A stretch of DNA of 64,000 nucleotides, taken from contig JAAYCL010000036.1 in assembly GCA_012729785.1 (NCBI GenBank), positions 1 to 64,000 on the forward strand. The letters run 5' to 3'. Positions 20,020 to 44,271 of this stretch are shown piece by piece. The first letter of the stretch is position 1; each line of letters begins with the position of its first letter. The notes under the pieces are model-generated. The model worked only from the letters and a program-made list of their open reading frames with translations, was not told the DNA's origin and searched no databases. The position numbers and the translations under genes were made by a program. Source of the stretch: Chlamydiota bacterium (lineage in GTDB: Bacteria; Auribacterota; Tritonobacteria; UBA1439).

Positions 20020-20103
20020 CTAATTCCTCCCTATCTCCGGCGCCGGTCGCCGAACGATCCATCGGCGCCGTCTGCGTGGCGCCCGATCGTTGCGCCGTCC
20101 CGC

Positions 20104-21438
20104 CTAGCGTTTCCTCAGGTACCGGTCGATCGCCTCCGCGGCCGCCTTGCCGGCGGCCACGGCCTCGACGGCGGTGGCGCCTCCGTTCACCGCGTCGCCC
20201 CCGGCGAAGACGCCGGGGATGCTGGTGAGGCCGTTCGCCTTCGTCTTGATGCGGCCGCGCGCGTCGGTCTTGAGGCCGAACGCCTTATGGAGCGCCGCGT
20301 CCGGGTCCTGGCCGAGCGCCTGGACGACGGTGTCCGCCTTCACGATGAACTCGGAACCGGGGATCGGGACGGGGCGCGGGCGCCCGGACTCGTCTTTGGG
20401 GCCCAGCTTCATCTTGATGCACTCCACCGCCTCGACCCGCTTCTTCCCGAGGACCTTCTTCGGGGCGGTCAGGAACATGAACTCGGTCCCCTCGCGGAAG
20501 GTCATCGCGACCTCGGCCTCCCATGCGGGCATCTCCGCCATCCCGCGGCGGTAGATGACGAGGACGCGCGCGGCGCCGAGACGGAGCGCGGAGCCGGCGC
20601 AATCCATCGCGGTGTTGCCCGCGCCGAAGATGGCGACCGTCTCGCCGACCCGCGGCTTCTTCGGGCCGAACTTGGCGGCGGCGATGAAGTCGAGGGCGTC
20701 CCAGACGCCGTCCAGCTTCGTCTGCTCGAGGTTCTGCCAGCGGGATTTCCAAGCCCCGGTGCCGATGAAGACCGCGGCGAAGCCCGACGCCTTCAAGGCG
20801 GCGAGGCCGGCGATCTTCTTCCCGGTGACGATGTTGACACCCGACTTCCGGATCGCCTCGATCTCCGCGTCGACGATCCGCTGGTCGAGCCGGTACGAGG
20901 GGATGCCGTAGGTGAGCATCCCCCCCGCCTTGCGGTTCTGCTCGAAGACGGTGACGTGGTGGCCGCGCTTGGCGCACTCGATGGCGCAGGTGAGCCCGGC
21001 CGGTCCGGCGCCGACGCAGGCGACCTTCTTCGCCCCCTTGCGGGGCTCGACCGCGAACGGGCGTATGCCGCCCACGAGATCGAGATCCGCGACGTAGCGC
21101 TGCAGCGTGGCGATGTCGAGGGGGGAGGTGGCGAACTGGTTGCGGCAGGCGCCGATGCAGAACTCGTCGGCGGGGCAGATGCGCCCGCAGACGCTGGCGA
21201 ACGGGTTCGCCTCCCTGATGATGCGGATGGCGCTCTTGAGGTCGCCCACGTGGATCCGCCGGATGAATGCGCTCACGTCCACGCCGCTCGGGCAGCCGCT
21301 GCTGCACGGCGCCTCGAGGCAGTAGTTGCAGCGGACGGCCTCCTTGCGGGCGAGGTTGTGCGGGACCGGTTTGAGGATCTCCTGAAAATCCCGGGTGCGT
21401 TCCTTGACGGGCCGCTCAGTCGAACGCGTCACGCTCAT
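20104..21438 (-). CDS. preT: NAD-dependent dihydropyrimidine dehydrogenase, FAD/Fe-S subunit
   Basis: 444 residues. Flavoprotein partner of PreA that exchanges electrons with NAD(H). The N-terminus holds the two-cluster Fe-S domain of the GltD family: CNYCLEAPCSSGCP (Cys37-Cys49 region) and CGRICPADEFCIGACR (about 83-99). The FAD site is GAGPAGLTCA and the NAD site GAGNTAMD, followed by AADTVVQALGQDPD-like and VFAGGDAVNGGATAVEAVAAGK. First gene of the minus-strand PreT-PreA-HydA-aminotransferase run. An extended -10 TATACT lies 37 bp upstream (21480-21475) without a good -35. Confidence 0.92.
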   Translation of the reverse strand: MSVTRSTERPVKERTRDFQEILKPVPHNLARKEAVRCNYCLEAPCSSGCPSGVDVSAFIRRIHVGDLKSAIRIIREANPFASVCGRICPADEFCIGACRNQFATSPLDIATLQRYVADLDLVGGIRPFAVEPRKGAKKVACVGAGPAGLTCAIECAKRGHHVTVFEQNRKAGGMLTYGIPSYRLDQRIVDAEIEAIRKSGVNIVTGKKIAGLAALKASGFAAVFIGTGAWKSRWQNLEQTKLDGVWDALDFIAAAKFGPKKPRVGETVAIFGAGNTAMDCAGSALRLGAARVLVIYRRGMAEMPAWEAEVAMTFREGTEFMFLTAPKKVLGKKRVEAVECIKMKLGPKDESGRPRPVPIPGSEFIVKADTVVQALGQDPDAALHKAFGLKTDARGRIKTKANGLTSIPGVFAGGDAVNGGATAVEAVAAGKAAAEAIDRYLRKR

Positions 21439-21508
21439 GGCTGCCTCCTCGATGAGGGGGGTTGAAGAGACGACAGTATAGCATCATGCGGCGGGGAGGC
21501 GCCAGAGC

Positions 21509-21553
21509 TTTATGGGTTGTCGTCGTTTATGGGTTGTCGTTTATGGGTTGTCG
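21509..21553 (+). repeat. Three direct copies of a 14-bp repeat
   Basis: TTTATGGGTTGTCG at 21509-21522, 21526-21539 and 21540-21553, in the gap between preT and the SGNH hydrolase gene. Too few and too short for CRISPR. It may be slippage debris or a binding-site array in front of preT. Confidence 0.7.
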
Positions 21554-21590
21554 GGGTGCTTTCGGGGGTGCGTTATGGAGTGGCGGGTAA

Positions 21591-21616
21591 GGGAGCACTT
21601 CTTAAGGAGTGCTCCC
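21591..21616 (-). terminator. Stem-loop after the SGNH hydrolase gene
   Basis: GGGAGCACT (21591-21599) pairs perfectly with AGTGCTCCC (21608-21616) around TCTTAAGG. It lies 4 bp past the stop of the minus-strand gene. The tail (TTACCC on the minus strand) is poor in T, so it is a possible weak terminator or RNA-stabilising hairpin. Confidence 0.4.
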
Positions 21617-21619
21617 TCA

Positions 21620-22720
21620 TTATTCCCCTTCCCCCTTGAGGGGGAGCCTGCCTGCCGGAAGGCAGGGGGTGGGGGGATAACAAAGCACCCCATAAGTGTC
21701 CCTTACGGTGGCGGCGGGCGGACGTCTTACCAGGTATCCGTTCTTGAGGATCGCCTCTGCCAGCACCTCGCCGCAGATGCGGTGCCCCGCCTCGTTGTAG
21801 TGCGCCCCATCGGGCAGCTTCAGCACGGTGCCCCTGCGCTCCTCCTCCCGTATCCGCAGGGGCACCTCGTCGATGAAGGGGATCTTCTCGCGACCGAATA
21901 TTCGGCTGAACTGTTCGAAGCACGGGGGGTGAAGGTCCACGGGGAAGGCGATGACGTGCGTCGCCCCGGCCCGCCTCTTGATCTTCCCGATCAGCTCCTC
22001 GGTGACGGAGACGGAGCGCGCGAAATCGGGATACTCCATCCCCCGTGCCATCGGCCCTTCGACGCTGTGCAGGATCCCGTTCTGTGCAAGCAGGGCGCGC
22101 GCTTTTTCCAATCGGGTGATCAGCACGGAGCAGAGCCTCGAATGCGAAGCCAGGAACACCCGTACCCCCCCCGCTCGCCGTGGGAAGCGGTACTCGATCC
22201 TCCCGTGCACCCAGTAGGGGCGTATCAGGAGGTTGTTGTTGAAGTAGCTTGCGCGTTCGAGGTCCCACGAGTTGTTGATGAAGTCGTTATAACACACCTG
22301 CAGTATGATTAGGTCGGGCTTCACCCGATCGAGGTACCGGTCGAGCGCGAGGTATTCCTGGAGGGTCCCGTAGCCGCTTGCGCTGTAGGCGGAAATTCCG
22401 GCGCCGAGGGCGCGCCCGAGGACGGTGTAGTACAGCTTCTCCTCTGGGACGCCGACGCCCTGGGTGAAAGAGTCGCCGAGGACGAATATCCGCGGCGCGC
22501 GAGGGGAGGCCCCCTCTGATACCAGCTTCCCCCGCCAGCCGAGCACCGGATCGCACCGGGAATATTCCGAGAAGGAGAACGGAATGCCGTAGCGGTGGTA
22601 GTGACATGCCCGCAGCAGCACCTCCGCGGCGGCAAGGGTGACGACCGTGGAGATGGCCAGTGCATAGATCTTCGCGCGCGCGCAATGTTGCATTGGGTTA
22701 CCGGCCGTGAACGCATTCAT
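21620..22720 (-). CDS. Membrane-anchored SGNH/GDSL-family hydrolase
   Basis: 366 residues. One N-terminal membrane span (about 15-37: KIYALAISTVVTLAAAEVLLRA) and an SGNH fold: block I GDSFTQG (nucleophile Ser), block II ASGYGT, block III CYNDF (Asn), block V DGAHYNEAGH with Asp and His of the triad. These enzymes are esterases or acyl-modifying enzymes of surface glycans. The last ~18 residues (PPTPCLPAGRLPLKGEGE) are translated from a palindromic repeat at about 21628-21675 and are unlikely to belong to the fold; the native end may be near VRDTYGVL. Start is uncertain (ATG 22720 or 22693). It interrupts the pyrimidine genes and has no obvious pathway link. Confidence 0.78.
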   Translation of the reverse strand: MNAFTAGNPMQHCARAKIYALAISTVVTLAAAEVLLRACHYHRYGIPFSFSEYSRCDPVLGWRGKLVSEGASPRAPRIFVLGDSFTQGVGVPEEKLYYTVLGRALGAGISAYSASGYGTLQEYLALDRYLDRVKPDLIILQVCYNDFINNSWDLERASYFNNNLLIRPYWVHGRIEYRFPRRAGGVRVFLASHSRLCSVLITRLEKARALLAQNGILHSVEGPMARGMEYPDFARSVSVTEELIGKIKRRAGATHVIAFPVDLHPPCFEQFSRIFGREKIPFIDEVPLRIREEERRGTVLKLPDGAHYNEAGHRICGEVLAEAILKNGYLVRRPPAATVRDTYGVLCYPPTPCLPAGRLPLKGEGE

Positions 22721-22761
22721 GGCGAGATGTGCACTCCCCGGCCCCGCTGCCCGGGGCGATC

Positions 22762-22788
22762 CCCCGCGCGCAAGGCTCGCGCGCGGGG
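22762..22788 (-). terminator. GC-rich stem-loop between two minus-strand genes
   Basis: CCCCGCGCGC (22762-22771) and GCGCGCGGGG (22779-22788) form a perfect 10-bp stem. A wider TGTGCA/TGCACA pair (about 22730-22799) encloses it. It lies ~50 bp past the nitrilase stop. No T tract, so a rho-type or structural role is as likely. Confidence 0.4.
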
Positions 22789-22838
22789 CGGCGGTGCACA
22801 GGGACGCGGCGACGGGTCCCCCCCCCGCTGCTGCCGTG

Positions 22839-23741
22839 CTACGGCAGCTGCTTCACCAGGTCGCCGTAGGTGTCGGGACGGCGGTCGCGGAAGAACTGCC
22901 ATTCGTCCCGGACCTCCCTGAGCAGGTCGAGGTCCATGTCCGCCACGACGATCTCGTCGCGGTCCTCTCCCCCCTGTGCGATGATCTTGCCGCGCGGGTC
23001 GCAGAAGTAGGAGGCGCCGTAGAACTTGCCGAAGTTCCACGGGGCCTCGACGCCGACGCGGTTGACGGCGCCGACGTAGATCCCGTTCGCCACGGCGTGC
23101 GCGGGCTGCTCGAGCTCCCAGAGGTGTCTGGAAAGGCCGCGGACGGTCGCGGAGGGGTTGAGGATGAGCCAGGCCCCGTGCAGGGCGAGGATGCGCGCCC
23201 CCTCGGGGAAGTGCCGGTCGTAGCAGATGTAGACGCCGATCGTCCCCACGGCGGTCTCGAATACCGGGTAGCCGAGATTGCCGGGCTTGAAATAAAATTT
23301 CTCTAAGAAACCGGGTTCGACGTTGGGGATATGGTTCTTGCGGTAGATCCCGACGAGCTTCCCGTCGGCGTCGATCACCGCGGCGGTGTTGTAGTAGACG
23401 CCGGTGATCGTGACCTCGTAGAGGGGGACGACCAGAACCATCCCGTGCTTCTTCGCCGCGGCCTGCATGCGCTTGACGGTGGGGCCGGGGATCGGCTCGG
23501 CGGTGCGGTACCAGCGCTTGTCGTGCTTGCTGCAGAAGTAGGGGCCGAAGAAGATCTCCTGGAGGCAGCAGACCTGCACGCCGCGTTTGGCGGCCTCGCC
23601 GATACGGGCGAGGTGCTTGCGCACCATCGCCTCCTTGATCGCGGCTAGCTCCCTGGAGACGTCGGCGGGCTTCATCTTCGAGATGTCCGCCGTGGGGGCC
23701 TTGACGTTCGATGCCTGGATGAGTCCACCCCGTACGATCAT
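22839..23741 (-). CDS. Nitrilase-superfamily amidohydrolase, probable beta-ureidopropionase
   Basis: 300 residues from ATG 23741 (GGGGAGG 9 nt upstream). Catalytic Glu in CLQEIFFGPYF, Lys in GIYRKNHIP and Cys in VYICYDRHFPEG define the Glu-Lys-Cys triad. The EIFFGPYFCS and YRKNHIPNVEPGFLEKFYF contexts match beta-ureidopropionase and N-carbamoylputrescine amidase rather than nitrilases. With PreT/PreA and dihydropyrimidinase next door, hydrolysis of N-carbamoyl-beta-alanine to beta-alanine, CO2 and ammonia is the best guess. Cytoplasmic. Same strand as the PreT run but separated from it by the SGNH gene. Confidence 0.85.
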   Translation of the reverse strand: MIVRGGLIQASNVKAPTADISKMKPADVSRELAAIKEAMVRKHLARIGEAAKRGVQVCCLQEIFFGPYFCSKHDKRWYRTAEPIPGPTVKRMQAAAKKHGMVLVVPLYEVTITGVYYNTAAVIDADGKLVGIYRKNHIPNVEPGFLEKFYFKPGNLGYPVFETAVGTIGVYICYDRHFPEGARILALHGAWLILNPSATVRGLSRHLWELEQPAHAVANGIYVGAVNRVGVEAPWNFGKFYGASYFCDPRGKIIAQGGEDRDEIVVADMDLDLLREVRDEWQFFRDRRPDTYGDLVKQLP

Positions 23742-23846
23742 CGCATGAATCCTCCCCTGTCCGGTGTGCGTGTGCAACCGCGCCGCGGACGGCGCGCCGG
23801 GCCTGAACGTCGGATGCGCCGGCGTGTCACGCCGCGGCATGCGGCG

Positions 23847-24300: not shown

Positions 24301-25224
24301 GTGAGAGCGATTCAGGCGGCGTCGATCGATCGCGAACTTGCAGGTGCGCTCCGCCGCGGGGGGCGTCGCGGCGAGGTTCTCTCCACGCACCGGAAGGCGG
24401 CGTATCTGGCGGCGCAGGACGGGCGGCTGGTTGTCCTTGCGGGAGAGGAGGCCGGCAACGGCCCCGGGTTTGTCGTCGTGCCGGGCGTCTCCTCGTTTGC
24501 CGCGGGGCCGGGTGCGGTGGTCCCGGGCGAGCCGTGGGAGGCGGCAGGGTCGCTCCTGGTCGTCGGCGGGGGGCGGCTGGGGATCGAAACGGAGGGGGCC
24601 ACGGCGTGGGATGCCGAATTGCGAATCCTCCCGTTACGAAATGGTGCCCGGGAGCGGGCGGATGCGGCGCTCGAAATCGCGCAGGCGGGGCGTCCCGCGG
24701 GGGCGCTCGGCGCGCTCATCGGCGATCTCGCCGCGATCGCCGCGGGGGGGACGCCGCGCGGGTGCGGCACGGTCGAGCGGAGGGTCCGCCTGCTCGCGGA
24801 CGCCCTCGCGGCGGGGAGCGGGGTCGCGGCCGCCGCGTCCGCCCTCGTCGGCCTCGGGGACGGGCTCACCCCCTCCTGCGACGATCTGCTCGCCGGTCTC
24901 GCCGGGACGCTTCGACTCTTCTCCGGGGACCGGCGCCACGGGGCGTGGGCGCGCGGCGCGCTCGCGGCGGTCGCCGTGTCGGTCGAGGAGGCGGGAAGCC
25001 GTACCACCCCCGTCTCCCGGCATTTCCTGCGGGCGGCGGCGCGCGGGCGCTTCGCGGAGCGGCCGAAAAATCTTCTCGAGGCGGTGCGCGGCGGCGGCGA
25101 GAAAACGGTGGCGGAGGCGGCGGTTCGGATGCTACACTGTGGAGCCACGTCGGGCGCGGACCTGGTCTTCGGCGTCGCGCTGGGGTTTCTCGTCCTGTCC
25201 CGCCGCGAAAAGGAGGGGTTATGA
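24301..25224 (+). CDS. allH: DUF2877 protein, AllH (YlbF)-like carbamoyltransferase subunit
   Basis: 307 residues from GTG 24301. The C-terminal half carries the DUF2877 signatures LVGLGDGLTPSCDDLLAG and GATSGADLVFGVALGF. In E. coli the DUF2877 protein YlbF (AllH) is, with FdrA (AllF) and YlbE (AllG), one of three proteins required for oxamate carbamoyltransferase. Homologues of the other two are at 30500-33494 in this window. No ribosome site precedes the GTG; a -10-like TACCAT (24288-24293) is so close that the mRNA could be leaderless. The stop overlaps the next ATG (ATGA), coupling it to the cyclase gene. The substrate here is probably a ureido compound, but that is inference. Confidence 0.8.
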   Translation: MRAIQAASIDRELAGALRRGGRRGEVLSTHRKAAYLAAQDGRLVVLAGEEAGNGPGFVVVPGVSSFAAGPGAVVPGEPWEAAGSLLVVGGGRLGIETEGATAWDAELRILPLRNGARERADAALEIAQAGRPAGALGALIGDLAAIAAGGTPRGCGTVERRVRLLADALAAGSGVAAAASALVGLGDGLTPSCDDLLAGLAGTLRLFSGDRRHGAWARGALAAVAVSVEEAGSRTTPVSRHFLRAAARGRFAERPKNLLEAVRGGGEKTVAEAAVRMLHCGATSGADLVFGVALGFLVLSRREKEGL

Positions 25225-25991
25225 AACTGAAGATGTACGATCTGACGCAGCCGCTGAGCGACCTCACCCCCGCCTGGCCGACCTACGAGCCGCTGCAGGT
25301 GAAGTTCTTCAAGCGCCTCGCTCCCAACGGCGCCAACGGACAGCTCGTGACGCACTCCAACCACGTGGGCACCCACCTCGACGGCTCCCTGCACTTCTGC
25401 ACGCACGGCCGCGACATCGCTTCGATCCCGCTCGAGGAGCTCGTGAGCGACGGCGTGATCGTGGACCTGAGCGACATCGCCGAGGACTACGGCATCTACA
25501 CCTCCAAGCAGATCACCGACCGGGTCGAGGTGCGGAAGGGCGATATCCTGATCATCAACACCGGGTACCATCGGTACGCGTGGGACCAGCCTGCGGCCGA
25601 CGAGGTCCGCTACATGGTGAAGCACCCGGGCCCGCAGCGGGAGTTCTCGCGCTGGTGCCAGCAGATGAAGTTCAAGTGGATCGGGGTCGACTGCGGCTCG
25701 GCGGACCACCCGATGAACACGAAGATACGCGAGTGGATGCCGAAGCAGGCCGCCGAGTGCGAGGCGTACTTCCAGAAGAGGTACGGCAAGTCCATCGACG
25801 ACCTGTTCCCGCCAGACCATTACCAGCTGATGCACATCGACCTCTTCCCGCAGGACATCATCCACGCCGAGAATCTCGGCGGGGAGATCGACAAGGTGCT
25901 GAACCGCCGGATGGTCATCGGCTGCTTCCCCTGGCGCTGGGTCGGCGGGGAGTCGTCGATCTGCCGCATCGTGGCGTTCGACATGAAGTAG
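25221..25991 (+). CDS. Cyclase-family (PF04199) metal-dependent hydrolase
   Basis: 256 residues. The family signature HxGTHxDxxxHF appears as HVGTHLDGSLHF (about 48-59), the metal site of kynurenine formamidase, isatin hydrolase and related enzymes that open cyclic amides or cleave formyl amides. IGVDCGSADHP and HYQLMHIDLFPQDIIHAENL give the rest of the fold. It is translated with DUF2877 (4-bp overlap) and followed by uridine phosphorylase, so a role in opening or deacylating a pyrimidine- or purine-derived ring is likely. AGGAGG lies 8 nt before the ATG. Confidence 0.82.
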   Translation: MKLKMYDLTQPLSDLTPAWPTYEPLQVKFFKRLAPNGANGQLVTHSNHVGTHLDGSLHFCTHGRDIASIPLEELVSDGVIVDLSDIAEDYGIYTSKQITDRVEVRKGDILIINTGYHRYAWDQPAADEVRYMVKHPGPQREFSRWCQQMKFKWIGVDCGSADHPMNTKIREWMPKQAAECEAYFQKRYGKSIDDLFPPDHYQLMHIDLFPQDIIHAENLGGEIDKVLNRRMVIGCFPWRWVGGESSICRIVAFDMK

Positions 25992-26074
25992 CGGGCCCCC
26001 TGATCCGTTCCACTCCTTCCCCGAGCGGGGGGACATGGCGCGGACGGAGGCGTGCGAGAGAAGGAGGATCCACG

Positions 26075-26824
26075 ATGAGCAAGAAGCAGCACCATATCGA
26101 CTGCGGCCCCGGCGACGTCGGACGGTATGTCCTGCTCCCCGGCGATCCCGGGCGCGTGCCGGTGATCGCGGCGCATCTGAAGAACGCGGCCATGGTGGCG
26201 CAGAACAGGGAGTACACCACCTATACCGGCGAGGTGGACGGGGTGCGGGTCTCCGTGACCTCCACGGGGATCGGCTGCCCCTCGGCGGCGATCGCGGTCG
26301 AGGAGCTCGCCCGCATCGGCGCCGACACCTTCATCAGGGTCGGGACCGCGGGGGCGCTCCAGATGAACGTGGCCCTCGGCGATCTGGTGATCTCCACCGC
26401 GACGGTGCGCGACGACGGGACCTCGCGGCAGTACCTGCCGCGCTCCGTGCCCGCGGTGTCGGATTTCCACCTCACGATGGCCCTCTGGGAGGCGGCGCGC
26501 AAGCTCGGCCACCGCGCCCATCTCGGCGTGACGCAGACGAAGGACGCCTTTTACACCGAGGAGGACGACCCGACGCTGCCGCGCTACGAGGAGATCCAGC
26601 GCGAGTGGAAGGCGTACCAGAAGGCCAACGTGCTCGCCTCCTCGATGGAATCGTCCGCGATCTTCAGCGTCGCGATGATCCGAAAACTCCGCGCCGCGGA
26701 GATCCTCGCGGTCATCGGCTCCACCTACTCTGGCGAGATGATCGTCAAGAAGGTCGGGATCGATGAGATGATCGCCACGGCAATCGAGGCGATCCGCATC
26801 ATCGCCGCGCGGGATTCGAAATGA
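26075..26824 (+). CDS. udp: Uridine phosphorylase
   Basis: 249 residues from ATG 26075 (AAGGAGG at 26061-26067). It splits uridine with phosphate into uracil and ribose 1-phosphate. Family marks: YVLLPGDPGRVPVIAAHL with the phosphate-binding GDPGR, STGIGCPSAAIAVEELARIGADTFIRVGTAGAL, and the ribose-binding MESSAIFSVA. The canonical GGIG motif is TGIG here. It supplies uracil to PreT/PreA and ribose phosphate to central metabolism. Its stop overlaps the following nitrilase ATG. Confidence 0.88.
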   Translation: MSKKQHHIDCGPGDVGRYVLLPGDPGRVPVIAAHLKNAAMVAQNREYTTYTGEVDGVRVSVTSTGIGCPSAAIAVEELARIGADTFIRVGTAGALQMNVALGDLVISTATVRDDGTSRQYLPRSVPAVSDFHLTMALWEAARKLGHRAHLGVTQTKDAFYTEEDDPTLPRYEEIQREWKAYQKANVLASSMESSAIFSVAMIRKLRAAEILAVIGSTYSGEMIVKKVGIDEMIATAIEAIRIIAARDSK

Positions 26825-27705
26825 AGCGCATCGTCGCCGCGGGCGTGCAGATCGCCGTGCACCCCAACGACCCCGCCGCCAACATCGCGAAGGCGGCGGC
26901 GTGGCTCCGCCGGGCGTGCGCGGAGGCGCGACCGGACCTCGTGGTCTTCCCCGAATCGGTGACGACCGGCTTCGCCCCGGCCCTTTCCCCGCGCGAGCTG
27001 CATCGCCTCGTGGACCGCATCCCCGGCCGCCTGACGGCGGAGATGCAGCGGCTCGCCCGCCGGCACCGCGTCCACATCGTCTGGCCCACCTACGAGCGGG
27101 GGGAGAAGCCGGGGATCGTCTACAACAGCGCCGCCCTCATCGGCCCCGACGGGAAGATCATCGGGGTCTACCGGAAGACGCACCCGTTTCCCACCGAGCG
27201 GCTCGCGGGCGGCGGGTGGACGACCCCGGGCGTCTCCGCGGAGGTCTACGAGACAAAGATCGGCGCGGTCGGGATGGTCATATGCTACGACGGGGATTTC
27301 CCGGAGCTCGTCCGCCTGCTTGCCGTGAAGGGGGCGGAGATCGTCGTCCGGCCGTCGGCGTTCATGCGGAGCTTCGACATCTGGGAGATCACCAACTGCG
27401 CCCGCGCCTACGACAACCACGTCTACTGGGTCGCGGTGAACGCCGTCGGCTTCGACGCGGCCGGCAACCACTACTCCGGCGGCAGCATGATCGTGAGCCC
27501 GATCGCCAGGAAGCTGGCGCAGGCGAGGGGAGGGGAGGAGATCATCTTCGCGGAGCTCGACCCGGACCCGATCCGGCACCTGACCTACGGGAGCACGGCG
27601 CCGATGTGCTTCGACCACCTCGAGGACCGCAATCTCGCCGCCTACGACGGCGTTCTTGCCCCCGCCCGGAGCCGCTTCAAGCCCGCCCGGCGCATTAAAT
27701 ACTGA
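26821..27705 (+). CDS. Nitrilase-superfamily amidohydrolase (second copy type)
   Basis: 294 residues. Triad Glu in VVFPESVTTGF, Lys in GVYRKTHPF, Cys in MVICYDGDFPE. It is clearly different from the enzyme at 22839-23741 (closer to general carbon-nitrogen hydrolases and amidases than to beta-ureidopropionases). It is translationally coupled to uridine phosphorylase (4-bp overlap), the last gene of the DUF2877-cyclase-udp-nitrilase operon. It could hydrolyse a carbamoyl or amide product of the cyclase step. Direct substrate unknown. Confidence 0.8.
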   Translation: MKRIVAAGVQIAVHPNDPAANIAKAAAWLRRACAEARPDLVVFPESVTTGFAPALSPRELHRLVDRIPGRLTAEMQRLARRHRVHIVWPTYERGEKPGIVYNSAALIGPDGKIIGVYRKTHPFPTERLAGGGWTTPGVSAEVYETKIGAVGMVICYDGDFPELVRLLAVKGAEIVVRPSAFMRSFDIWEITNCARAYDNHVYWVAVNAVGFDAAGNHYSGGSMIVSPIARKLAQARGGEEIIFAELDPDPIRHLTYGSTAPMCFDHLEDRNLAAYDGVLAPARSRFKPARRIKY

Positions 27706-27719
27706 AGTATCGGGGCATC

Positions 27720-28672
27720 GGGGTCGGACCACGTTATCTTATTGGCGTCGCATGAGTTAGGTTGAATCAAAAGCTTAAAAAAGGCCTTAGACGCGTTTTT
27801 TGCCCCTGTTTTCAGCGTATAAGCACTCGCTCTAGAGGGGGTGCGCTATGCCACGCGCGAGCAGGTATATCCTGCCAGGGCATCTGTATCATATCACGCA
27901 TCGATGTCACAACCGCTCCTTCCTTCTGAAGTTTTCCGTGGATCGCAACTATTACAGAGCATGCCTGCGCGAAGCGGCCCATCGGTATAAAGTATCCATA
28001 CTCGGCTACTGCATTACGCGCAACCATATCCACTTGATAGTGTGCTGCCTCCGCCCTCATTCGATCAGCCGTTTCATGCAGTTCGTGGAAGGGCGGAGCG
28101 CCCAGCAATACAATACGAGGAAAAAACGGAAGGGCGCATTCTGGGAGGACCGATATTTCTGCACAATGATTCAGAATGGCAGATCTCTTTGGAATTGCCT
28201 GCGTTACATAGACTTAAACATGATGCGTGCCGGGGTCGTTCTACACCCCAGCGAATGGGTATGGTGCGGCTACAGCGAGTTCATGGGGCTTCGGGTAAGA
28301 TACCGGATCCTGGATATACCCACGCTCCTTGTAATGCTCGGCTTTTCTGACGTCGAGAACGCAAGAAAATTTTACAGGGAAGATATAGCGCTGCATAGTG
28401 CCGCGGGAGATATGAAACGCCGGCCTGTGTGGACTGAAAGTCTTGCGGTTGGAGACAGGGCTTTTGTGGCCGCCATGAAGAAACGCATCCCCCGCATGAG
28501 AACCTATTCCACGAAAGACGAGACATTTGCGGGAGCGGATATTTGGAGTATCAAGGAGAAGAAGCGCCCTTACACTTGATTTTTAGGGGTCAAAATCGCT
28601 TCTAAGGCCCTTTTTAGGGCCTAAAAATGCTGTAACACGTTCTTGTCGTGATAGATATCGTGGTCCGACCCC
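27720..28672 (+). mobile_element. RAYT-like transposon with ~95-bp inverted ends
   Basis: Left end GGGGTCGGACCACGTTATCT (27720-27739) and right end ATATCGTGGTCCGACCCC (28655-28672) are inverted repeats. The similarity continues inward for ~95 bp through GGCCTTAG...GCG.TTTT blocks on each side. A single transposase gene lies between them. The same ends bound a 244-bp element at 34685-34928. Confidence 0.82.
27848..28579 (+). CDS. REP-associated tyrosine transposase (Y1/HUH family)
   Basis: 243 residues. Y1-transposase fold as in IS200/RAYT proteins: YHITHRCHNRSF near the N-terminus, the HUH metal motif in ITRNHIHLIV (His-Ile-His), the catalytic Tyr in QQYNTRKKRKG and GAFWEDRYF after it. It cuts single-stranded DNA and forms a 5'-phosphotyrosine. 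The C-terminal ~100 residues (from about 145) are specific to the RAYT branch. Base composition is visibly lower in GC than the flanks. It appears intact. IS200-type elements lack long inverted repeats, so the ~95-bp ends are notable. Confidence 0.85.
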   Translation: MPRASRYILPGHLYHITHRCHNRSFLLKFSVDRNYYRACLREAAHRYKVSILGYCITRNHIHLIVCCLRPHSISRFMQFVEGRSAQQYNTRKKRKGAFWEDRYFCTMIQNGRSLWNCLRYIDLNMMRAGVVLHPSEWVWCGYSEFMGLRVRYRILDIPTLLVMLGFSDVENARKFYREDIALHSAAGDMKRRPVWTESLAVGDRAFVAAMKKRIPRMRTYSTKDETFAGADIWSIKEKKRPYT

Positions 28673-28810
28673 AAACCATAGTGGAGGAGCCGCTCCGGAG
28701 TCCCCTGCTGTTGCTCTTCAATTCAGTGCGGGGAATCTATCCGGCGTCCGTTGCTTCCGGCGGCGTTTAGATCCTTATCATATTTCGGCAGAGAGAGTTG
28801 TATACAACGT

Positions 28811-30472
28811 CTACAGGAAGCAGGCGGGGGGTTTGTAGAGGCCCCCGGAGGCCTTCACGAGGTCGTCGATCGTCTCGGCGGCGAGAAGGTCGTGCCGTGC
28901 GTCTGCAGGTTTGAGGCCGATGTCCTCGGGGTAGAGGACGATCTTTTCGGCCCGCAAACGCTCTGTCTCCGCTTTCTTCTCCTTCCTGCCCAGCGGGGTG
29001 TCCCCGGCGACGGAGCGGATGGCGGCCCGGCGGACGGATATGTCCGGGCAGCGGTGGAGCACGGCGATCCCCTTCTCCGTGACGATGTGCGTGATCTCGT
29101 CGCCGTAGAGCATCACGGGGGGGAGGGGGAAGAGCCCCTGCGTGTGGAGCTTCTCGGCGTCGAGGTGCTCGATGAACACCGGAATCCCCTTCTTCTCGCT
29201 CACGGTGGGGGTGAGCTGAACCACGAGCTTCCGGCCGCGCGCGAGCCCCCCGGCGCTGCGGATCGACCCCTCGTCCTCGGCTCCCGCCTTCAGCCAGGAG
29301 TCGCTCACGTGCCGCCTCCCCCGCGCGTTGCTCCCGAGGTTGGGGGCGCCTCCGAAGCCCGCGATGCGGCTCATCGTGGCGGTCGAGCTGTTCCCGTTTT
29401 CGTCGATCTGGAGCGTCATCCCGACGAACATGTCGCTGGCGTAGATCCCGGCCACCTGCGAGAGCAGGCGGTTGGAGCGCAGGCTGCCGTCGCGGCCGTT
29501 GAAGAAGATGTCGCTGCGCTCGCGGATGTACCCCTCCATCCCCGGCTCGCTCCCGAACGAGTGGACGCTCTTGACGAATCCCGCCTCGATCGCCGGGATG
29601 AGGGTGGGGTGGGGATTGAGGATCCAGTGCGTACACGCCTTCCCCTTGAGGCCGAGCGTTTCGCCGTAGGTGGGGAGCAGGAGCTCGATCCCGCAGGTCG
29701 TGTAGCCGATCCCGTGGTTCAGGCTCCCGACCATGTACGGGGCGTAGATCCCCTTCATGGCGAGCATCCCGATGAGGATCTGGAGCTGGGTGATCTTGGC
29801 CGGGTCGCGCGTGAAGAGCGGCTCGATGTAGGGCGAACTGCCGCAGGGGATGACGTAGTCGACCCGGTCCCCCGGGATATCCACGCGCGGGAGCCGCGAA
29901 ACGATCTCCCGCACCTGCGCGATGACGATCCCCTGCCGGAACGCCGCGGCCTCCACGATCGTCGGCGTCTCCTCGGTGTTGTAGCCGGTGTAGAGGTTCC
30001 CGTCGGCGTCGGCGAGTTCCGCCGCCACGAGCGCGACGCGCGGGGTGAGGTCCACGAAGTAGCGGCCGTACAGCTCGAGGTAGGTGTGGATGGCGCCGAT
30101 CTTCACCTTCTTCTCGTTTGCGATCCGGGCGATCTCCTTGGCCTGGGGCCCCGAGAAGGCGAAGTCGAGCTTCTCGGCGATACCGCGGTCGAAGACCGCG
30201 ACATGTTCCGGCAGGACGATCGACGACTGGACCATGTGGAGGCGGTTGATCCTGGCCGGGTCGAGGCCCGCGAGCGTCGCGGCCAGGAACGCCGCCTGCT
30301 TCTGGTTGTCGCCCTCGATAGTCACCCGGTCGCCGGGGCGCAGCACCGCGTAGAGCAGCCCCGCGGCGTTGGCGGGGGGGACGATCTTGGCGCCTCCCGC
30401 GAGGAGCGGGCGGGCGGCGGCGAGGCGTTGTTCACGGTCGCGGGCGAGCGTGCGGTAGTCTTTCGGGGTCAT
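28811..30472 (-). CDS. mdcA: Malonate decarboxylase alpha subunit-like CoA/ACP transferase (MdcA), stand-alone
   Basis: 553 residues, the MdcA length. Matches MdcA along its whole course: RLAAARPLLAGG, GDRVTIEGDNQKQAAFLA, FAFSGPQAKEIARI, IGAIHTYLELYGRYFVDLTP, VDIPGDRVDYVIPCGSSPYIEPLFTRDP, LNHGIGYTTCGIELLLPTYGE, FNGRDGSLRSNR, SRIAGFGGAPN. MdcA exchanges acetyl for malonyl on the ACP subunit of malonate decarboxylase. The other subunits (mdcB, C, D, E, G, H) are absent here, so it probably works as a CoA transferase on malonate or another acid. It is the third gene of a minus-strand operon after FdrA and DUF1116 (27 bp gap). In context it could activate malonate-level products of beta-alanine. 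Confidence 0.88.
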   Translation of the reverse strand: MTPKDYRTLARDREQRLAAARPLLAGGAKIVPPANAAGLLYAVLRPGDRVTIEGDNQKQAAFLAATLAGLDPARINRLHMVQSSIVLPEHVAVFDRGIAEKLDFAFSGPQAKEIARIANEKKVKIGAIHTYLELYGRYFVDLTPRVALVAAELADADGNLYTGYNTEETPTIVEAAAFRQGIVIAQVREIVSRLPRVDIPGDRVDYVIPCGSSPYIEPLFTRDPAKITQLQILIGMLAMKGIYAPYMVGSLNHGIGYTTCGIELLLPTYGETLGLKGKACTHWILNPHPTLIPAIEAGFVKSVHSFGSEPGMEGYIRERSDIFFNGRDGSLRSNRLLSQVAGIYASDMFVGMTLQIDENGNSSTATMSRIAGFGGAPNLGSNARGRRHVSDSWLKAGAEDEGSIRSAGGLARGRKLVVQLTPTVSEKKGIPVFIEHLDAEKLHTQGLFPLPPVMLYGDEITHIVTEKGIAVLHRCPDISVRRAAIRSVAGDTPLGRKEKKAETERLRAEKIVLYPEDIGLKPADARHDLLAAETIDDLVKASGGLYKPPACFL

Positions 30473-30499
30473 CTCCTGCAGGATCTCCTTGGACGGCGC

Positions 30500-31924
30500 T
30501 CAGGGGGCGTATCGCTCGGCGAACGCCGCGAGGGCCCGGCGAAAGAGGTCCGGATCGGCCCGGAGCAGCCCCGCGCCGATCTGGCCGATCCCCGGCTTCC
30601 GGTGGGCGACGCCGGTGTTGATGACCGGGGTGATGCCGGTCTCGACCACCTTGCGGATATCCACCCCCGCCGGGGTGCCGCGGAAGTCGAGCGTGGGGAG
30701 CAGAAAGTCGCGGTGTTCCGCCCAGGTGATCTCGTACATCTCGCGGGTGTAGCGGACCGCGTCGGCGGGGGACCCGCCGACGAACTTCACGATCGCCGGC
30801 GCCGCCGCCATCGCCATCGCCCCGACCGCGCCCGTCTCCGTGATGGTGCTGTCGCCGAGGTCCCGGCAGCCGTCGGCGGCGGTGAAGCCCGGGAAGTAGA
30901 GCCCCTTCGGCTCCCCGGCGGGGGCGGTGAACCACCGGTCCCCGAGCCCCGCGACGCGGATCCCGATCTCGACGCCGTTGCGCGCCATCGCGCAGACGAT
31001 CGTCGATCCCTCGAGCCCCTTCACCGCGTCCGCGGTCGCCTTCGAGGCGGGCATCGTCAGGTTGAGGAAGAAATGGTCGTTGCCGGTGATGAAGGAGAAG
31101 ATCTCCGCCGCCGTCTTCTTGTCGATGCCGGTCGCCAACAGGTGCGGGGTGATGAGGCGCAGGAAGAGGCTCGTCCCGGCGACGTTCCGGTTGTGGCACT
31201 CGTCGCCCATCATCAGCGCCTGCGCCATGAGGGACTTGAGGTTGATCCCCCCCGCGCGCCGCACCGCCTCCGCGAGCGCCGGCGCGAGGACGGTCTCCAT
31301 CCACTTCAGGCGCGCGAGCACCTCCGGATCGTTGGCGCCGAAACGGAGCACCTTGCCGAGCCCCTCGTTGAGCGTCGTGTAGGCGGTGTTCCCCGCGGTC
31401 TCATTCCGGACGCAGAAGACCCACATCGAGGGGGAGACGACCCCCGCCATCGGGCCGACGGCGGAGTGGTGATGGCAGGGGGAGAAGTCGATCTTGCCGC
31501 TCCCGGCGAGCCGTTCGGCCTCCGCGATGTCGCGCGCCTTCCCCTCGTAGACGAGGGCGCCGGCGACGGCCCCGCGCATCGGCCCGCACATCGCCTCCCA
31601 CGCGATCGGGGGGCCGGCGTGCAGGATGGTGCGGTCGGTCATCCCCGGGATCACCTCGCGCGCGGGCCGGATGTCCACAAGGACCGGCTGGGCGCCGAGC
31701 ATGATCTCGACGGCCCGGTCGTTGGACTTTTTGATGGCCTCGGCGATCGGGGCCAGGGAGTCGAGGAAGGCCAGGGATTCGGGGTCGCCGCCCGCGGGCG
31801 GCTTCCAGTCCACGTGGATCGCGCGCGCCCCCTGTTGGAGGATCGCCGCGGTGAACGACTCGAGCCCCATGCCGATGACGGCGGGCTTCCCTTCGAGGAG
31901 GTTGCCGGCGGTCTGTCTGTTCAT
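30500..31924 (-). CDS. allG: DUF1116 protein, AllG (YlbE)-like carbamoyltransferase subunit
   Basis: 474 residues. DUF1116 proteins are found next to FdrA. Visible: HVDWKPPAGGDP near the N-terminus, a long segment with CGPMRGAVAGALVYEG, FSPCHHHSAVGPMAGVVSPSMWVF, NEGLGKVLRFGA, LMMGDECHNRNVAGTSLFLR and FVGGSPADAVRYTREMYEIT. The His- and Cys-rich motifs (PCHHHSA, GDECHNRN) look like active-site elements. In E. coli the homologue YlbE (AllG) is required with FdrA and YlbF for oxamate carbamoyltransferase. It is 34 bp downstream of FdrA and 27 bp upstream of the MdcA-like gene. Confidence 0.87.
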   Translation of the reverse strand: MNRQTAGNLLEGKPAVIGMGLESFTAAILQQGARAIHVDWKPPAGGDPESLAFLDSLAPIAEAIKKSNDRAVEIMLGAQPVLVDIRPAREVIPGMTDRTILHAGPPIAWEAMCGPMRGAVAGALVYEGKARDIAEAERLAGSGKIDFSPCHHHSAVGPMAGVVSPSMWVFCVRNETAGNTAYTTLNEGLGKVLRFGANDPEVLARLKWMETVLAPALAEAVRRAGGINLKSLMAQALMMGDECHNRNVAGTSLFLRLITPHLLATGIDKKTAAEIFSFITGNDHFFLNLTMPASKATADAVKGLEGSTIVCAMARNGVEIGIRVAGLGDRWFTAPAGEPKGLYFPGFTAADGCRDLGDSTITETGAVGAMAMAAAPAIVKFVGGSPADAVRYTREMYEITWAEHRDFLLPTLDFRGTPAGVDIRKVVETGITPVINTGVAHRKPGIGQIGAGLLRADPDLFRRALAAFAERYAP

Positions 31925-31958
31925 CCGTGTTCCATCCTATGGGCGCCGTGCGCCCGGG

Positions 31959-33494
31959 TCAGCGGGAGACGATGAGGCCCGCGAGACGCGCCGCCTCCGC
32001 ATTGGTCTCCGTTACGATGACGCCCGCCTGTTCGAGCGCGGCGCGCTGGCGGGAGCGACACTGCGGGTCGGCGTCGGTGCCGGTGACGGAGGCGACGAAC
32101 GCGATCCGCCTCTTCCCCGCGCGGGCCTGCGCCGCCTCGATCGCCGGGACGAGCGCCCCCGCGGGGTCGGGGTGCGCGCCGTATCCGAGCACGACGTCGA
32201 AGAGGATCAGCGCGGTTTCCGGATCTCCCGCCTCCCGTACGATCCGCTCGCATCGCAGTGTGAAATCGATCATCGGGTGCGGCCGCCCCCGGGTGAATTC
32301 GTCGTCGCCGAGATCGACGAGGCAGTGCCCCACGCTCACGGCGGCGTCCGCGAGCTTCATCTCCGGGACGAGCGGCGTGTTCGACCGGCAACGGCCCACC
32401 GACTCGTTCAGCACGAGGAGCGCCTCGTCGGTGAGCGTGCCGCCGGAGAAGAGGCCTCGGATGTACCGCTGCCCGGGATCGAGCATCCGGCGCGTCTTCT
32501 CCGCCCGCCGCGCGAAGGCGTCAGAAATACCTGCGCGGGGAGGCGCCTTCCCGCCCGCTGCCTCGACCGCGGCGAGCGCCGCCGACTCGAGCGTGGGGCA
32601 GAAGCGGAGGCCGCGCGCCTCCACCTCGGCCGGGTCGCCATTCATGAAACAGACGATCGCCGGCGTGGCACATTTCGCCGCATGGTCGAGGACCCTGGCC
32701 GCGACCGACCGGTCGGGGGGCTTGGAGACGAGGACGATCAGCTTCGTGGCGGGGTCCGCGTCGAGGAGGTCGATGCCCCTGCACATGCTGATGCCGCCCA
32801 CCTCCTTCCCCAGGTCGCGCCCGCCGAGCCCGATGGCGTGGCTGATCCCGAGGCCGCGGTTCGAAACGATGCAGCTCACCTCCTGGATCCCGGTGCCGGC
32901 CGCCCCGACGATGCCGACGGGGCCGCGGTTCACGACGTTGGCGAAGCCGAGCGCGACGCCGCCGATGATCGCCGTGCCGCAGTCGGGCCCCATCACGATG
33001 AGGCCGAGCCGGTCGGCTTTCCGTTTCAGGGCGACCTCGTCCTCGATCGGCACATTGTCGCTGAAGATCATCACGTGCATCCCGCGGTCGAGCGCCGCCT
33101 CGGCCTCGCGGCGCGCGTAGGGGCCGGGAACGGAGATGAAGACGAGGTTCGCCTCGGGCAGCGCCCTGGCGGCCGCGGCGAGGGAGGGCGGGGCCGCCTG
33201 CGCGTCGCCGGGCGCGGCCTGGGGGCGGGAGAGGAGGAACTCCTGTACCGCGGCCGCGGCGCTCTCCGCGCGGGCCTCATCCTCGGCGCGGACGGCGATG
33301 ATCAGATCCATCGGCCCGGCGGCGGCCCCGGCGTCGTCGAGGACGCCGGAGGCGGCGAGGAGCTCCTTGTTGGCGTCGGTCCCCATCATCGCCGAAACCT
33401 CGCCGGCGCCCGACGCCTCCTTCGCGCGGGCCGCGATGGACATCAGCATCACCGAGTCCACGTAGCGGTTGGGTATCACGATGTTCCGGAGCAT
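31959..33494 (-). CDS. fdrA: FdrA/AllF-family protein, succinyl-CoA-synthetase-like carbamoyltransferase subunit
   Basis: 511 residues from ATG 33494 (GGGGAGG 7 nt upstream). FdrA has a duplicated CoA-ligase-like architecture: the N-terminal ~140 residues (MLRNIVIPNRYVDSVMLMSIA) are FdrA-specific; then comes VGIVGAAGTGIQEVSCIVSNRGLGISHAIGLGGRDL, where succinyl-CoA synthetase alpha has its CoA and phosphohistidine region; a ligase-like C-terminal domain follows (FSGGTLTDEALLVL, ALILFDVVLGYGAHPDP). In E. coli FdrA (AllF) is one of three proteins of oxamate carbamoyltransferase. First gene of the FdrA-DUF1116-MdcA operon, diverging from the nucleoside-importer operon. Confidence 0.9.
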   Translation of the reverse strand: MLRNIVIPNRYVDSVMLMSIAARAKEASGAGEVSAMMGTDANKELLAASGVLDDAGAAAGPMDLIIAVRAEDEARAESAAAAVQEFLLSRPQAAPGDAQAAPPSLAAAARALPEANLVFISVPGPYARREAEAALDRGMHVMIFSDNVPIEDEVALKRKADRLGLIVMGPDCGTAIIGGVALGFANVVNRGPVGIVGAAGTGIQEVSCIVSNRGLGISHAIGLGGRDLGKEVGGISMCRGIDLLDADPATKLIVLVSKPPDRSVAARVLDHAAKCATPAIVCFMNGDPAEVEARGLRFCPTLESAALAAVEAAGGKAPPRAGISDAFARRAEKTRRMLDPGQRYIRGLFSGGTLTDEALLVLNESVGRCRSNTPLVPEMKLADAAVSVGHCLVDLGDDEFTRGRPHPMIDFTLRCERIVREAGDPETALILFDVVLGYGAHPDPAGALVPAIEAAQARAGKRRIAFVASVTGTDADPQCRSRQRAALEQAGVIVTETNAEAARLAGLIVSR

Positions 33495-33599: not shown

Positions 33600-33686
33600 A
33601 CGCGCACACGCCGTCGCCGGAGGGGAGGCGCAGCGCCCGCCGTCCCCCCCGGGGGGGCGGTGCGGCCTTTCGGGGGAGGTGCGACG

Positions 33687-34676
33687 ATGAGGTGCGGGGC
33701 GGGTTCGATCGTTGCCGTCCTCGCCGCGGCGCTCGCCGGCTGCGGGGGGGAGGCGCCGAGCGATGCGGGGAAGACGAGGGTCGCCGCGGTCTTCGCGACG
33801 CCGATCGAGGAGCCGTGGGACGGGTGCATCCACCAGGCGCTGCTGCGCGCGAAGAGGGAACTCGGGGTGCACTACGAGTGGGCCGAGTCGGTCGCGAACC
33901 CCGATTTCGAGCGGGTGGTGCGGGAGTTCGCAGGGCGCGGCTTCGACCTGGTCATGGGCGACGCGTTCGGGTCCGAGGAGGCGGTGCGCCGCGCGGCGAA
34001 GGATTCTCCCAAGACCGCCTTTCTGTTCGGATCCGGCCTCAAGCCCCAGGCCCCCAACTTCTCCGTCTTCGACAACTGGATCCACGAGCCCGCCTACCTC
34101 TCGGGGATGATCGCCGGGAGACTCACGAAGACGAACTGCATCGGCGCGGTGGGGGGCTACTCGGTCCCGGAGGTGAACCGGCTGCTGAACGCATTCTTCT
34201 CCGGCGCCCGTTCGGTGAATCCCCAGATCAGGCGGAAGGTCGTCTTCATCAACTCCTGGTTCGACCCGCCGAAAGCCAAGGAGGCGGTCTTCGCGCAGGC
34301 CGCGCTCGGCGCGGACGTTTTCTTCGGGGAGCGCTACGGCGTGATCGAGGCGTGCCGCGAGAAGGGCCTCCTCGCCTTCAGCAACATGCAGCCGCAGGCG
34401 GCGCTCGCCCCCGACACCGTCGTGACCGGGCCGGTCTGGGACATGTGGCCCACCGTGCGCGAGGCGATCGGCCGGGTCAGGGGCGGGAGGTGGATCGCGC
34501 AGGACTTCGCAGAATGGACGATGATGCGGAAGGGCGGCGCCTCGCTCGCCCCGTACCACGACTTCGAGAAGAAGCTCTCCTCCGAGATCCTCCAGATGGT
34601 CGCGGAGAAACAGCGCGAGATCCTGGAGGGCCGCTTCACCGTCCCGGTCGATGAGCAGATCCCCGTGTCGGATTGA
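33687..34676 (+). CDS. BMP-family nucleoside-binding lipoprotein of an ABC importer
   Basis: 329 residues from ATG 33687 (GGGGGAGG upstream). Lipoprotein signal with lipobox LAGC (residues ~17-20 of the start MRCGAGSIVAVLAAALAGCGG). The mature part is a BMP/PnrA domain: VAAVFATPIEEPWDGCIHQALLRAK, FDLVMGDAFGSEEAVRRAAKD, FDNWIHEPAYLSGMIAGRLTK, GYSVPEVNRLLNAFFSGAR. Known members bind purine or pyrimidine nucleosides. The operon context with uridine phosphorylase and PreT/PreA suggests uridine or a nucleobase as ligand. First gene of the importer operon. Confidence 0.85.
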   Translation: MRCGAGSIVAVLAAALAGCGGEAPSDAGKTRVAAVFATPIEEPWDGCIHQALLRAKRELGVHYEWAESVANPDFERVVREFAGRGFDLVMGDAFGSEEAVRRAAKDSPKTAFLFGSGLKPQAPNFSVFDNWIHEPAYLSGMIAGRLTKTNCIGAVGGYSVPEVNRLLNAFFSGARSVNPQIRRKVVFINSWFDPPKAKEAVFAQAALGADVFFGERYGVIEACREKGLLAFSNMQPQAALAPDTVVTGPVWDMWPTVREAIGRVRGGRWIAQDFAEWTMMRKGGASLAPYHDFEKKLSSEILQMVAEKQREILEGRFTVPVDEQIPVSD

Positions 34677-34684
34677 CAACTGTT

Positions 34685-34928
34685 GGGGGCGGACCACGGT
34701 ATCTGATTGCAGCTGTATATGTTAGGACTAATCCAGGCCTTACAAACGGCCTTAGAAGCGATTTTTAACCCTGAAAATGCATTCTAAGGGGAATATACAC
34801 CGATGCGCATAAGCCGATAGATCCCTTAGAGGCTGAAAACAGGCCCCAAAATCGCTTCTAAGGCCCTTTTTAGCGCATGAAATATACCTAACATGTTGCA
34901 GAACAATAAGATATCGTGGTCCGACCCC
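34685..34928. mobile_element. 244-bp non-autonomous element (MITE) related to the RAYT-like transposon
   Basis: Ends GGGGGCGGACCACGGTATCT (34685-34704) and ATATCGTGGTCCGACCCC (34911-34928) match those of the 27720-28672 element and each other as inverted repeats. Both halves keep the GTTAGG and GGCCTTAGAAGCGATTTT blocks, so the element is nearly a complete ~95-bp inverted repeat with a short unique middle and no gene. It lies in the junction between the binding-protein and ATPase genes. Confidence 0.85.
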
Positions 34929-36446
34929 GAATATCTTGTGGAGATGCGGGGGATTGTCAAGCGGTTCTACGGCAGGGCGGTCAACGATCGCGTCGATCTC
35001 ACCCTGCGCAAAGGGGAGGTGCTCGCCCTCCTCGGCGAGAATGGGGCGGGGAAATCCACGCTCGTCAAGATCCTCTACGGACTCTACACGCCCGACGCGG
35101 GGCGACTGGCAGTCAGGGGGCGCCCCGCCTGCATCAGATCCCCGAGGCACGCCATCTCTCTCGGGATCGGCATGGTGCACCAGCATTTCACCCTCGTCTC
35201 CGAGCTCACAGTCGCCGAGAACATCGCCCTCTGCGCCCCGCCCGCCCGCCGCGGCGTCCTCCTAGACCTGGCGGGAGTGGAGCGGCGCGTCCGGGATATC
35301 TCCGACCGGTACGGCATCCGGGTCGACCCGACGGGGAGGGTGGGGGAACTCTCCGTCGGGGAGCGCCAGCGGGTCGAGATCCTCAAGGCCCTCGCGGGCG
35401 GGGCGGAGATCCTCGTCCTCGACGAGCCGACCGCGGTCCTCACGCCGGGCGAGGCGGCGGAGCTGTTCGGCGTCATCGAATCGCTGAAACGCGGTGGGGC
35501 GGGGATCGTCCTCATCAGCCACAAGCTCGAGGAGGTGATGGCGGTCTCCGATCGCGTGACGGTGCTGCGCGGGGGGCGGGTCGTCCTCGACACCGACACC
35601 CGGCGCACAGACGTCCGGGCGCTCGCGGCGGCCATGATGGGGCGGGAGACGCCGGCGCCGTCGCGGCGCGCCGCGCGGAAGCCGGGGCGGCCGGTCCTCG
35701 ATGTCAGGGGGCTGCGGGCGCGCGGCGCGCAGGGGCACGAGGCCCTCAGGGGCGTTTCGTTCACCGTCCGGGAGGGGGAGATCGTCGGCCTCGCCGGGGT
35801 CTCCGGGAACGGCCAGCGCGAGCTGGCGGAGATCCTCTCGGGCCTGCGCCCCGCCTCGGGGGGCGAATTCCTCCTGCGCGGCGTCGGGATGCGCGGGGCG
35901 ACGCCGCGCCGGCTCGCGATGCGCGGGGTCGGGAGGATCCCGGAGGACCGGATGGAGACCGGGGCGATACTCGACCTGTCCCTGAAGCAGAACCTGATCC
36001 TGGAGCGGTACCACCTCGCCCCGTTCTCGAAACGGTACCGACAGGTGCCGGGGGAGATCGACGCGTGCGCCGAGCGCCTTGTCGCGGAGTACCGTATCGC
36101 GGCGCACTCGATTGAGATCGAACTGCGCACCCTCTCCGGGGGGAACATCCAGAAGGCGATCCTCGCGCGGGCGCTGGATCCCCGCCCGTCGCTCATCCTC
36201 GCCGCCCAGCCGGTGCGGGGGCTCGATGTGGGGGCCGCGGCGTTTGTCCATCGGAGGCTTCTCGATGAGAGGGACCGCGGCGCGGCGGTGCTGCTCATCT
36301 CCGAGGACCTCGACGAGATACTCCTGCTCGCCGACACGATCGGGGTGATCTACCGGGGGGAGCTCCTGCGCGTCTGCCCGAGGGGGGAGATCGACCGCGA
36401 TCGCATCGGCATGCTGATGGCGGGCGTGCGGGAGGGGACGCGATGA
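34893..36446 (+). CDS. ABC importer ATPase with two nucleotide-binding domains (YufO/PnrC-like)
   Basis: 517 residues from ATG 34893, but that start and the first 12 codons lie inside the 244-bp mobile element; GTG 34938 and ATG 34944 are in-frame alternatives just after it. No good ribosome site is seen for any. The first domain has Walker A GENGAGKST, signature LSVGERQR and Walker B ILVLDEPTAVL; the second has a degenerate Walker A region GVSGNGQRE and signature LSGGNIQKAI, the usual layout in BMP-type and RbsA-like importers. It energises nucleoside uptake with the two permeases. The stop overlaps the next ATG. Confidence 0.87.
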   Translation: MLQNNKISWSDPEYLVEMRGIVKRFYGRAVNDRVDLTLRKGEVLALLGENGAGKSTLVKILYGLYTPDAGRLAVRGRPACIRSPRHAISLGIGMVHQHFTLVSELTVAENIALCAPPARRGVLLDLAGVERRVRDISDRYGIRVDPTGRVGELSVGERQRVEILKALAGGAEILVLDEPTAVLTPGEAAELFGVIESLKRGGAGIVLISHKLEEVMAVSDRVTVLRGGRVVLDTDTRRTDVRALAAAMMGRETPAPSRRAARKPGRPVLDVRGLRARGAQGHEALRGVSFTVREGEIVGLAGVSGNGQRELAEILSGLRPASGGEFLLRGVGMRGATPRRLAMRGVGRIPEDRMETGAILDLSLKQNLILERYHLAPFSKRYRQVPGEIDACAERLVAEYRIAAHSIEIELRTLSGGNIQKAILARALDPRPSLILAAQPVRGLDVGAAAFVHRRLLDERDRGAAVLLISEDLDEILLLADTIGVIYRGELLRVCPRGEIDRDRIGMLMAGVREGTR

Positions 36447-43833: not shown

Positions 43834-43837
43834 CGGA

Positions 43838-44248: not shown

Positions 44249-44271
44249 CGGTTGTCCCTTCTTCCCCGGCG

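Follow-up and report, generated by a model that had tools for sequence, protein, structure and literature searches.

To our knowledge, it was not until 2024 that an activity was assigned to AllFGH, and then for allantoin alone. The oxamic transcarbamylase AllFGH of Escherichia coli, which is accompanied by AllK, uses the acylurea oxalurate (PMC11326118). It is already known that AllFGH also occurs without allantoin genes beside importers of the basic membrane protein (BMP) type, in comammox bacteria and ammonia-oxidising archaea, whose clusters (allFGHK, bmpA-nupABC, biuH) were interpreted as serving oxalurate use (PMC12625717). As for pyrimidines, the known oxidative pathway proceeds from barbiturate to ureidomalonate, and then to malonate and urea (PMC3758960, summarising Soong et al.). 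Here, we analyzed a stretch of 64,000 nucleotides (the window) from a Chlamydiota bacterium (assembly GCA_012729785.1, contig JAAYCL010000036.1), part of a source genome of 2.59 Mb in 45 contigs, which carries an AllFGH-type gene set within a pyrimidine-degradation island. The genes at the center of this island are the following:

24301-25224, plus strand: AllH-like protein (DUF2877), PF11392, E 4e-23
25221-25991, plus strand: PF04199 "putative cyclase" (Cyc), Pfam E 1e-33
26075-26824, plus strand: uridine phosphorylase-type PNP_UDP_1 protein (UdP), PF01048 E 1e-39; PDB uridine phosphorylase 3qpb E 6e-66
26821-27705, plus strand: CN-hydrolase 2, omega-amidase/aliphatic-amidase-like, PF00795 E 1e-46
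28811-30472, minus strand: MdcA, malonate decarboxylase alpha subunit (malonate CoA/ACP transferase), PF16957 E 1e-245
30500-31924, minus strand: AllG-like protein (DUF1116), PF06545 E 4e-97
31959-33494, minus strand: AllF/FdrA-like protein, NCBIfam NF004760 (FdrA), 506 bits for a cut-off of 433

All three subunit families of an AllFGH-type carbamoyltransferase were present in the window. An earlier note on this DNA had recognized them from the letters, and the family models bear it out, FdrA passing its cut-off. Identity to the E. coli proteins was 47% for AllG, 40% for AllF and 31% for AllH, and AllG was found in a single copy in the whole genome. As in E. coli (PMC11326118), the three families go along with a genomic carbamate kinase, which was indeed found outside the AllFGH operon (C36:126474-127415; 397 bits, cut-off 358), and the expected chemistry is the conversion of an acylurea and phosphate (Pi) into an amide and carbamoyl phosphate; from the sequences, we infer such a carbamoyl-phosphate-forming activity for the window proteins. 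In contrast to E. coli, the subunits are divided between two operons, the carbamate kinase lies 93 kb downstream of the island, and the partners are a cyclase, an amidase, MdcA and a uridine phosphorylase. No allantoin or ureidoglycolate gene was seen in the annotated island, in agreement with the earlier note, the rest of the genome not having been searched for them.

In our judgment, there is an even chance that the island comprises two modules for uracil, both supplied by the nucleoside importer and uridine phosphorylase, the second of which would degrade an oxidized pyrimidine and save its carbamoyl group as ATP. Module 1, with PreTA and dihydropyrimidinase followed by a hydrolytic beta-ureidopropionase and an aminotransferase for beta-alanine, would be the ordinary reductive route. 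Module 2 would consist of AllFGH, Cyc, the omega-amidase-like CN-hydrolase and MdcA. In most other phyla, a linked molybdenum hydroxylase would supply barbiturate. Cyc would open this ring, or that of thymine-derived 5-methylbarbiturate, to give an acylurea, ureidomalonate. AllFGH would then cleave ureidomalonate with Pi into malonamate and carbamoyl phosphate, in the way that the E. coli enzyme treats oxalurate; the amidase would release malonate and ammonia, MdcA would activate malonate, and carbamate kinase would turn carbamoyl phosphate into ATP. Ureidomalonate is a homologue of oxalurate that differs by one carbon, so that these products would be expected from the chemistry of the E. coli enzyme, and ureidomalonate, an oxidized, ring-opened pyrimidine, is probably the AllFGH substrate. 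We read these substrates and reactions, above all the choice of cyclic ureide, from what was observed, namely the gene families, their order, and which partners occur together or exclude each other. The proposed intermediates barbiturate, ureidomalonate and malonate are those of the barbiturase and ureidomalonase pathway (PMC3758960). However, the ring would be opened by a PF04199 protein instead of an AtzD-type barbiturase, ureidomalonate would undergo phosphorolysis with a gain of ATP instead of hydrolysis to urea, and most relatives have a molybdenum hydroxylase.

The cyclase is the key gene overlooked in the earlier note, from which two CN-hydrolases, a class-III aminotransferase and MdcA behind allFG were also absent. 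Its start overlaps the allH stop (ATGA), and in its motif HxGTHxDxxxH the residues H48, H52, D54 and H58 are invariant in 61 homologues. Among 145 related genomes, 26 with and 119 without AllG, a Cyc homologue (E <= 1e-50) was detected in 23/26 of the former and 1/119 of the latter (Fisher 2e-22), and carbamate kinase in 23/26 and 28/119, respectively. Screening 84,980 species genomes yielded 80 named AllG loci from about 18 phyla; with relatives counted in, 98 loci were studied. Contig ends truncate many of them, so that partner counts are lower bounds, and the 52 loci in which allG is flanked by 5 kb or more on either side were treated as well covered. Cyc lay at most 10 kb from allG in 59 of the 80 named loci, and near allG in 44 of the 52 well-covered ones. 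Over all 98 loci, AllF was present in 84 and Cyc in 74. Of 71 loci with AllG and Cyc alike, 54 had Cyc immediately after allG in the same orientation. Cyc is thus the strongest known partner of AllG. Also, on two Klebsiella plasmids FdrA, DUF1116 and carbamate kinase are encoded together with an amidohydrolase annotated as ring-opening (AtzD/barbiturase family), as would be expected if AllFGH generally acts once a ring has been opened.

Genes that would act after AllFGH inform on the product. The start of CN-hydrolase 2 overlaps the end of UdP (ATGA), its nearest PDB entries are 1f89 (yeast YLR351C), Nit2 and aliphatic amidases, and its E-K-C triad is present, making it a candidate malonamate amidase. 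MdcA, the sole copy in the genome, stands directly behind allG, and follows allG in relatives G001, G002, G004 and G005 too. Elsewhere the downstream genes vary, yet they agree in pointing to malonate or malonyl-CoA. Locus L160 carries the Na+ pump OAD_beta, MdcA, a carboxyltransferase-domain (MdcD-like) protein and MdcE behind allHFG-cyc, and in L157 the corresponding place is taken by OAD_beta and MdcA. In L116, a carboxyltransferase, OAD_gamma, a biotin carrier, AllH, OAD_beta, the protein family c13, AllF, AllG, the cyclase, carbamate kinase and the molybdenum hydroxylase lie on one strand (the carboxyltransferase, OAD_gamma, biotin carrier and AllH being identified by Pfam); the order labelled by similarity is the same in L119 and L124, the latter without carbamate kinase. 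Among the well-covered loci, an amidase (omega-amidase-like CN-hydrolase or PF01425) was found in 16/52 and c13 in 20/52, never both together (Fisher 1e-4), and CoA-transferase III occurred only in loci with an amidase. The c13 family (L172 12327-13001 and 24 other loci) has no Pfam match, mostly adjoins a thiolase and a zf-ChsH2 protein, and has a predicted GNAT fold (predicted local distance difference test, pLDDT, 93; PDB GNATs at E 3e-7). This pattern suggests the needs of a route from acylurea to amide to acyl-CoA, the amide step being deduced from the pattern itself.

The same genes bear on whether the window encodes a true oxamate carbamoyltransferase, the source of oxalurate being an imported ureide or a cyclic one, parabanate for example. 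The 31-47% identity to E. coli AllFGH agrees with this, and a path from oxamate through oxalate to oxalyl-CoA could likewise employ the amidase and CoA-transferase III. Nevertheless, MdcA, MdcE and the Na+-pumping decarboxylase genes indicate malonate, the allantoin-linked AllG form a clade apart from that of the window in the AllG tree (16 rows, FastTree, local support values only), and no allantoin gene was seen nearby, so that we consider oxalurate an unlikely substrate.

For the oxidation of the ring, a molybdenum hydroxylase of the xanthine dehydrogenase (XDH) type was linked to allG in 40 of the 52 well-covered loci and 40 of the 80 named loci. As many as 43 of 46 such linked enzymes fell in one clade, apart from E. 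coli XdhA/XdhD, and an NCS2 permease was present in 23/52 well-covered loci. The XDH-type hydroxylase, the NCS2 permease and a PucR-like regulator, found in many loci, would also speak for a purine version, with xanthine as the product of the hydroxylase, ring opening by Cyc to 4-ureido-5-imidazolecarboxylate, and release of carbamoyl phosphate from the latter by AllFGH; unnamed genes in L128 and L156 also resemble, by eye, molybdenum-cofactor accessory genes. We find this version improbable: the malonate/malonyl-CoA genes and amidases have no place in it, the window phosphorylase is of the uridine type, and the linked hydroxylases stand apart from the E. coli enzymes. The xanthine route was set aside as disfavored by the malonate genes.

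The reductive operon, proposed above as Module 1, covers 15858-23840 on the minus strand (Pfam and NCBIfam) and contains:

15858-17258, minus strand: class-III aminotransferase
17316-18716, minus strand: dihydropyrimidinase, TIGR02033 over cut-off, the allantoinase model below its own cut-off
18781-20019, minus strand: PreA, over cut-off
20104-21438, minus strand: PreT-type flavoprotein
21620-22720, minus strand: GDSL protein
22839-23840, minus strand: CN-hydrolase 1, beta-ureidopropionase-like, PDB beta-ureidopropionases E 1e-48

CN-hydrolase 1 retains the Glu-Lys-Cys triad, is nearest to N-carbamoylputrescine amidases and animal beta-ureidopropionases (E 1e-54 to 1e-48), and adjoins preT (PreT-PreA-HydA) in G002, G003 and G006 as well. 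The operon is of the kind known for the reductive pyrimidine pathway (PreTA, dihydropyrimidinase, beta-ureidopropionase) and, as judged from its predicted products, is a complete route to malonate semialdehyde without AllFGH. The earlier note had proposed that AllFGH phosphorolyses the N-carbamoyl-beta-alanine formed by PreTA and dihydropyrimidinase, giving beta-alanine and carbamoyl phosphate. The clustering of the genes in the window, the presence of carbamate kinase and the distribution of PreA (10/26 relatives with AllG, 7/119 without) speak for this, as does G003, in which the PreTA operon shares a contig with allH-cyc-UdP and MdcA; since no exact overlap was found between contigs C16 and C20 of G003, continuity of the island is not shown there. 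However, the step already has its own hydrolytic enzyme in CN-hydrolase 1, the PreTA operon and allF-allG are on different contigs in G002, G003, G004, G006 and G136, and AllFGH is not conserved with preTA and hydA: PreA was near allG in 0/52 well-covered and 1/80 named loci, and dihydropyrimidinase in 2/52. The proposal also leaves no role for Cyc, the amidase and MdcA. Moreover, cleavage of an alkyl urea such as citrulline by phosphate is energetically unfavorable, more so than that of an acylurea. N-carbamoyl-beta-alanine is therefore an unlikely substrate, and the reductive operon appears to be a separate neighbor module that does not use AllFGH. What survives is the general idea of a pyrimidine-linked AllFGH that saves the carbamoyl group through carbamate kinase; its substrate and partners change.

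Several observations weigh against an oxidative Module 2. We know of no characterized PF04199 enzyme that is a barbiturase, and regulators of the PucR type, as well as permeases for purines or uracil, are no less typical of purine catabolism. In the AllG tree, the window's clade has no linked molybdenum hydroxylase, and this enzyme occurred in 0/4 loci with uridine phosphorylase versus 40/48 others. The source genome encodes three XDH-type enzymes, none linked to the island; the one on contig C14, sister to the linked clade, was rejected as the linked hydroxylase, given its long branch and unrelated neighbors. Relative G136 is without any molybdenum hydroxylase match. It carries a tungsten-type gene of the aldehyde ferredoxin oxidoreductase (AOR) family (L053 10977-12872) between allG and an amidohydrolase-cyclase-uridine phosphorylase run, whose product is a possible substitute; a tungsten AOR was rejected as the oxidant of the source genome, which has no AOR gene. 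Also, the enrichment of PreA in genomes with AllG makes a link of AllFGH to the reductive route possible. The upstream oxidation being a weak point for the source genome, we rate the two-module explanation no higher than even.

The arm carrying AllG and AllF is followed by an importer (33660-38484) of the nucleoside type:

33660-34676, plus strand: BMP-type lipoprotein (Pfam)
34893-36446, plus strand: ABC ATPase (Pfam)
36443-37552 and 37549-38484, plus strand: two permeases (Pfam)

Thus, the surroundings given in the earlier note (uridine phosphorylase, PreT/PreA, dihydropyrimidinase, nucleoside importer) were all recovered by Pfam and NCBIfam. In the window as in the comammox and archaeal clusters (PMC12625717), AllFGH lies next to a nucleoside importer of the BMP type and has no allantoin genes upstream, but those clusters contain biuH and gatA-like genes instead of PreTA, the cyclase and MdcA. 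An IS200-like (Y1_Tnp) transposase (27848-28579) separates the two arms of the island, and G001 has a 78% identical copy at the equivalent position. About 10-14 kb from allF are methylmalonyl-CoA mutase subunits, MeaB and a CoA-transferase III (42895-47149; L037 and L038), with mutase genes upstream of allF in G003 and G004 too; they would suit methylmalonate from thymine. The window also holds a ureide-permease-family transporter beside a PfkB-type sugar kinase (10349-12314) and, at 38513-42194, a sulfur-transport/rhodanese fusion, a second sulfur-transport half and a metallo-beta-lactamase protein in which rhodanese stretches occur three times. The carbamate kinase gene adjoins genes of ornithine transcarbamylase (OTC)-fold and pyridoxal phosphate (PLP)-dependent proteins, in the order OTC-fold protein, carbamate kinase, PLP enzyme, second OTC-fold protein (L006 8557-13307; C36:125 kb). 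By eye, we take the first OTC-fold protein to be YgeW-like. G003 has a comparable run of such genes, close to a set of the XDH type and to open reading frames resembling HydA and PreA.

In a limited literature search, with most subscription journals outside it, we found no paper on a cyclase-AllFGH-molybdenum-hydroxylase cluster or on FdrA together with a cyclase family protein, and nothing relevant on barbiturate and uracil with XDH or a molybdenum hydroxylase, or on the reductive pyrimidine route with carbamate kinase. Tentatively, and at somewhat under an even chance, we suggest a widespread, undescribed anaerobic oxidative pyrimidine fermentation in many phyla, in which a molybdenum or tungsten enzyme would form barbiturate, a PF04199 protein would open the ring, AllFGH would lead to ATP, and decarboxylation of malonate or malonyl-CoA, Na+-pumping in some lineages, would provide a second energy conservation. 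If this is true, the commoner role of AllFGH would lie in another pathway than that of allantoin, and pyrimidine rings would be a possible energy source without oxygen. PF04199 cyclases, an uncharacterized GNAT family and a clade of molybdenum hydroxylases would each receive a testable function. The cluster is present in the named isolates Fuchsiella alkaliacetigena Z-7100 and Oceanirhabdus sp. W0125-5, which makes the proposed pathway directly testable.

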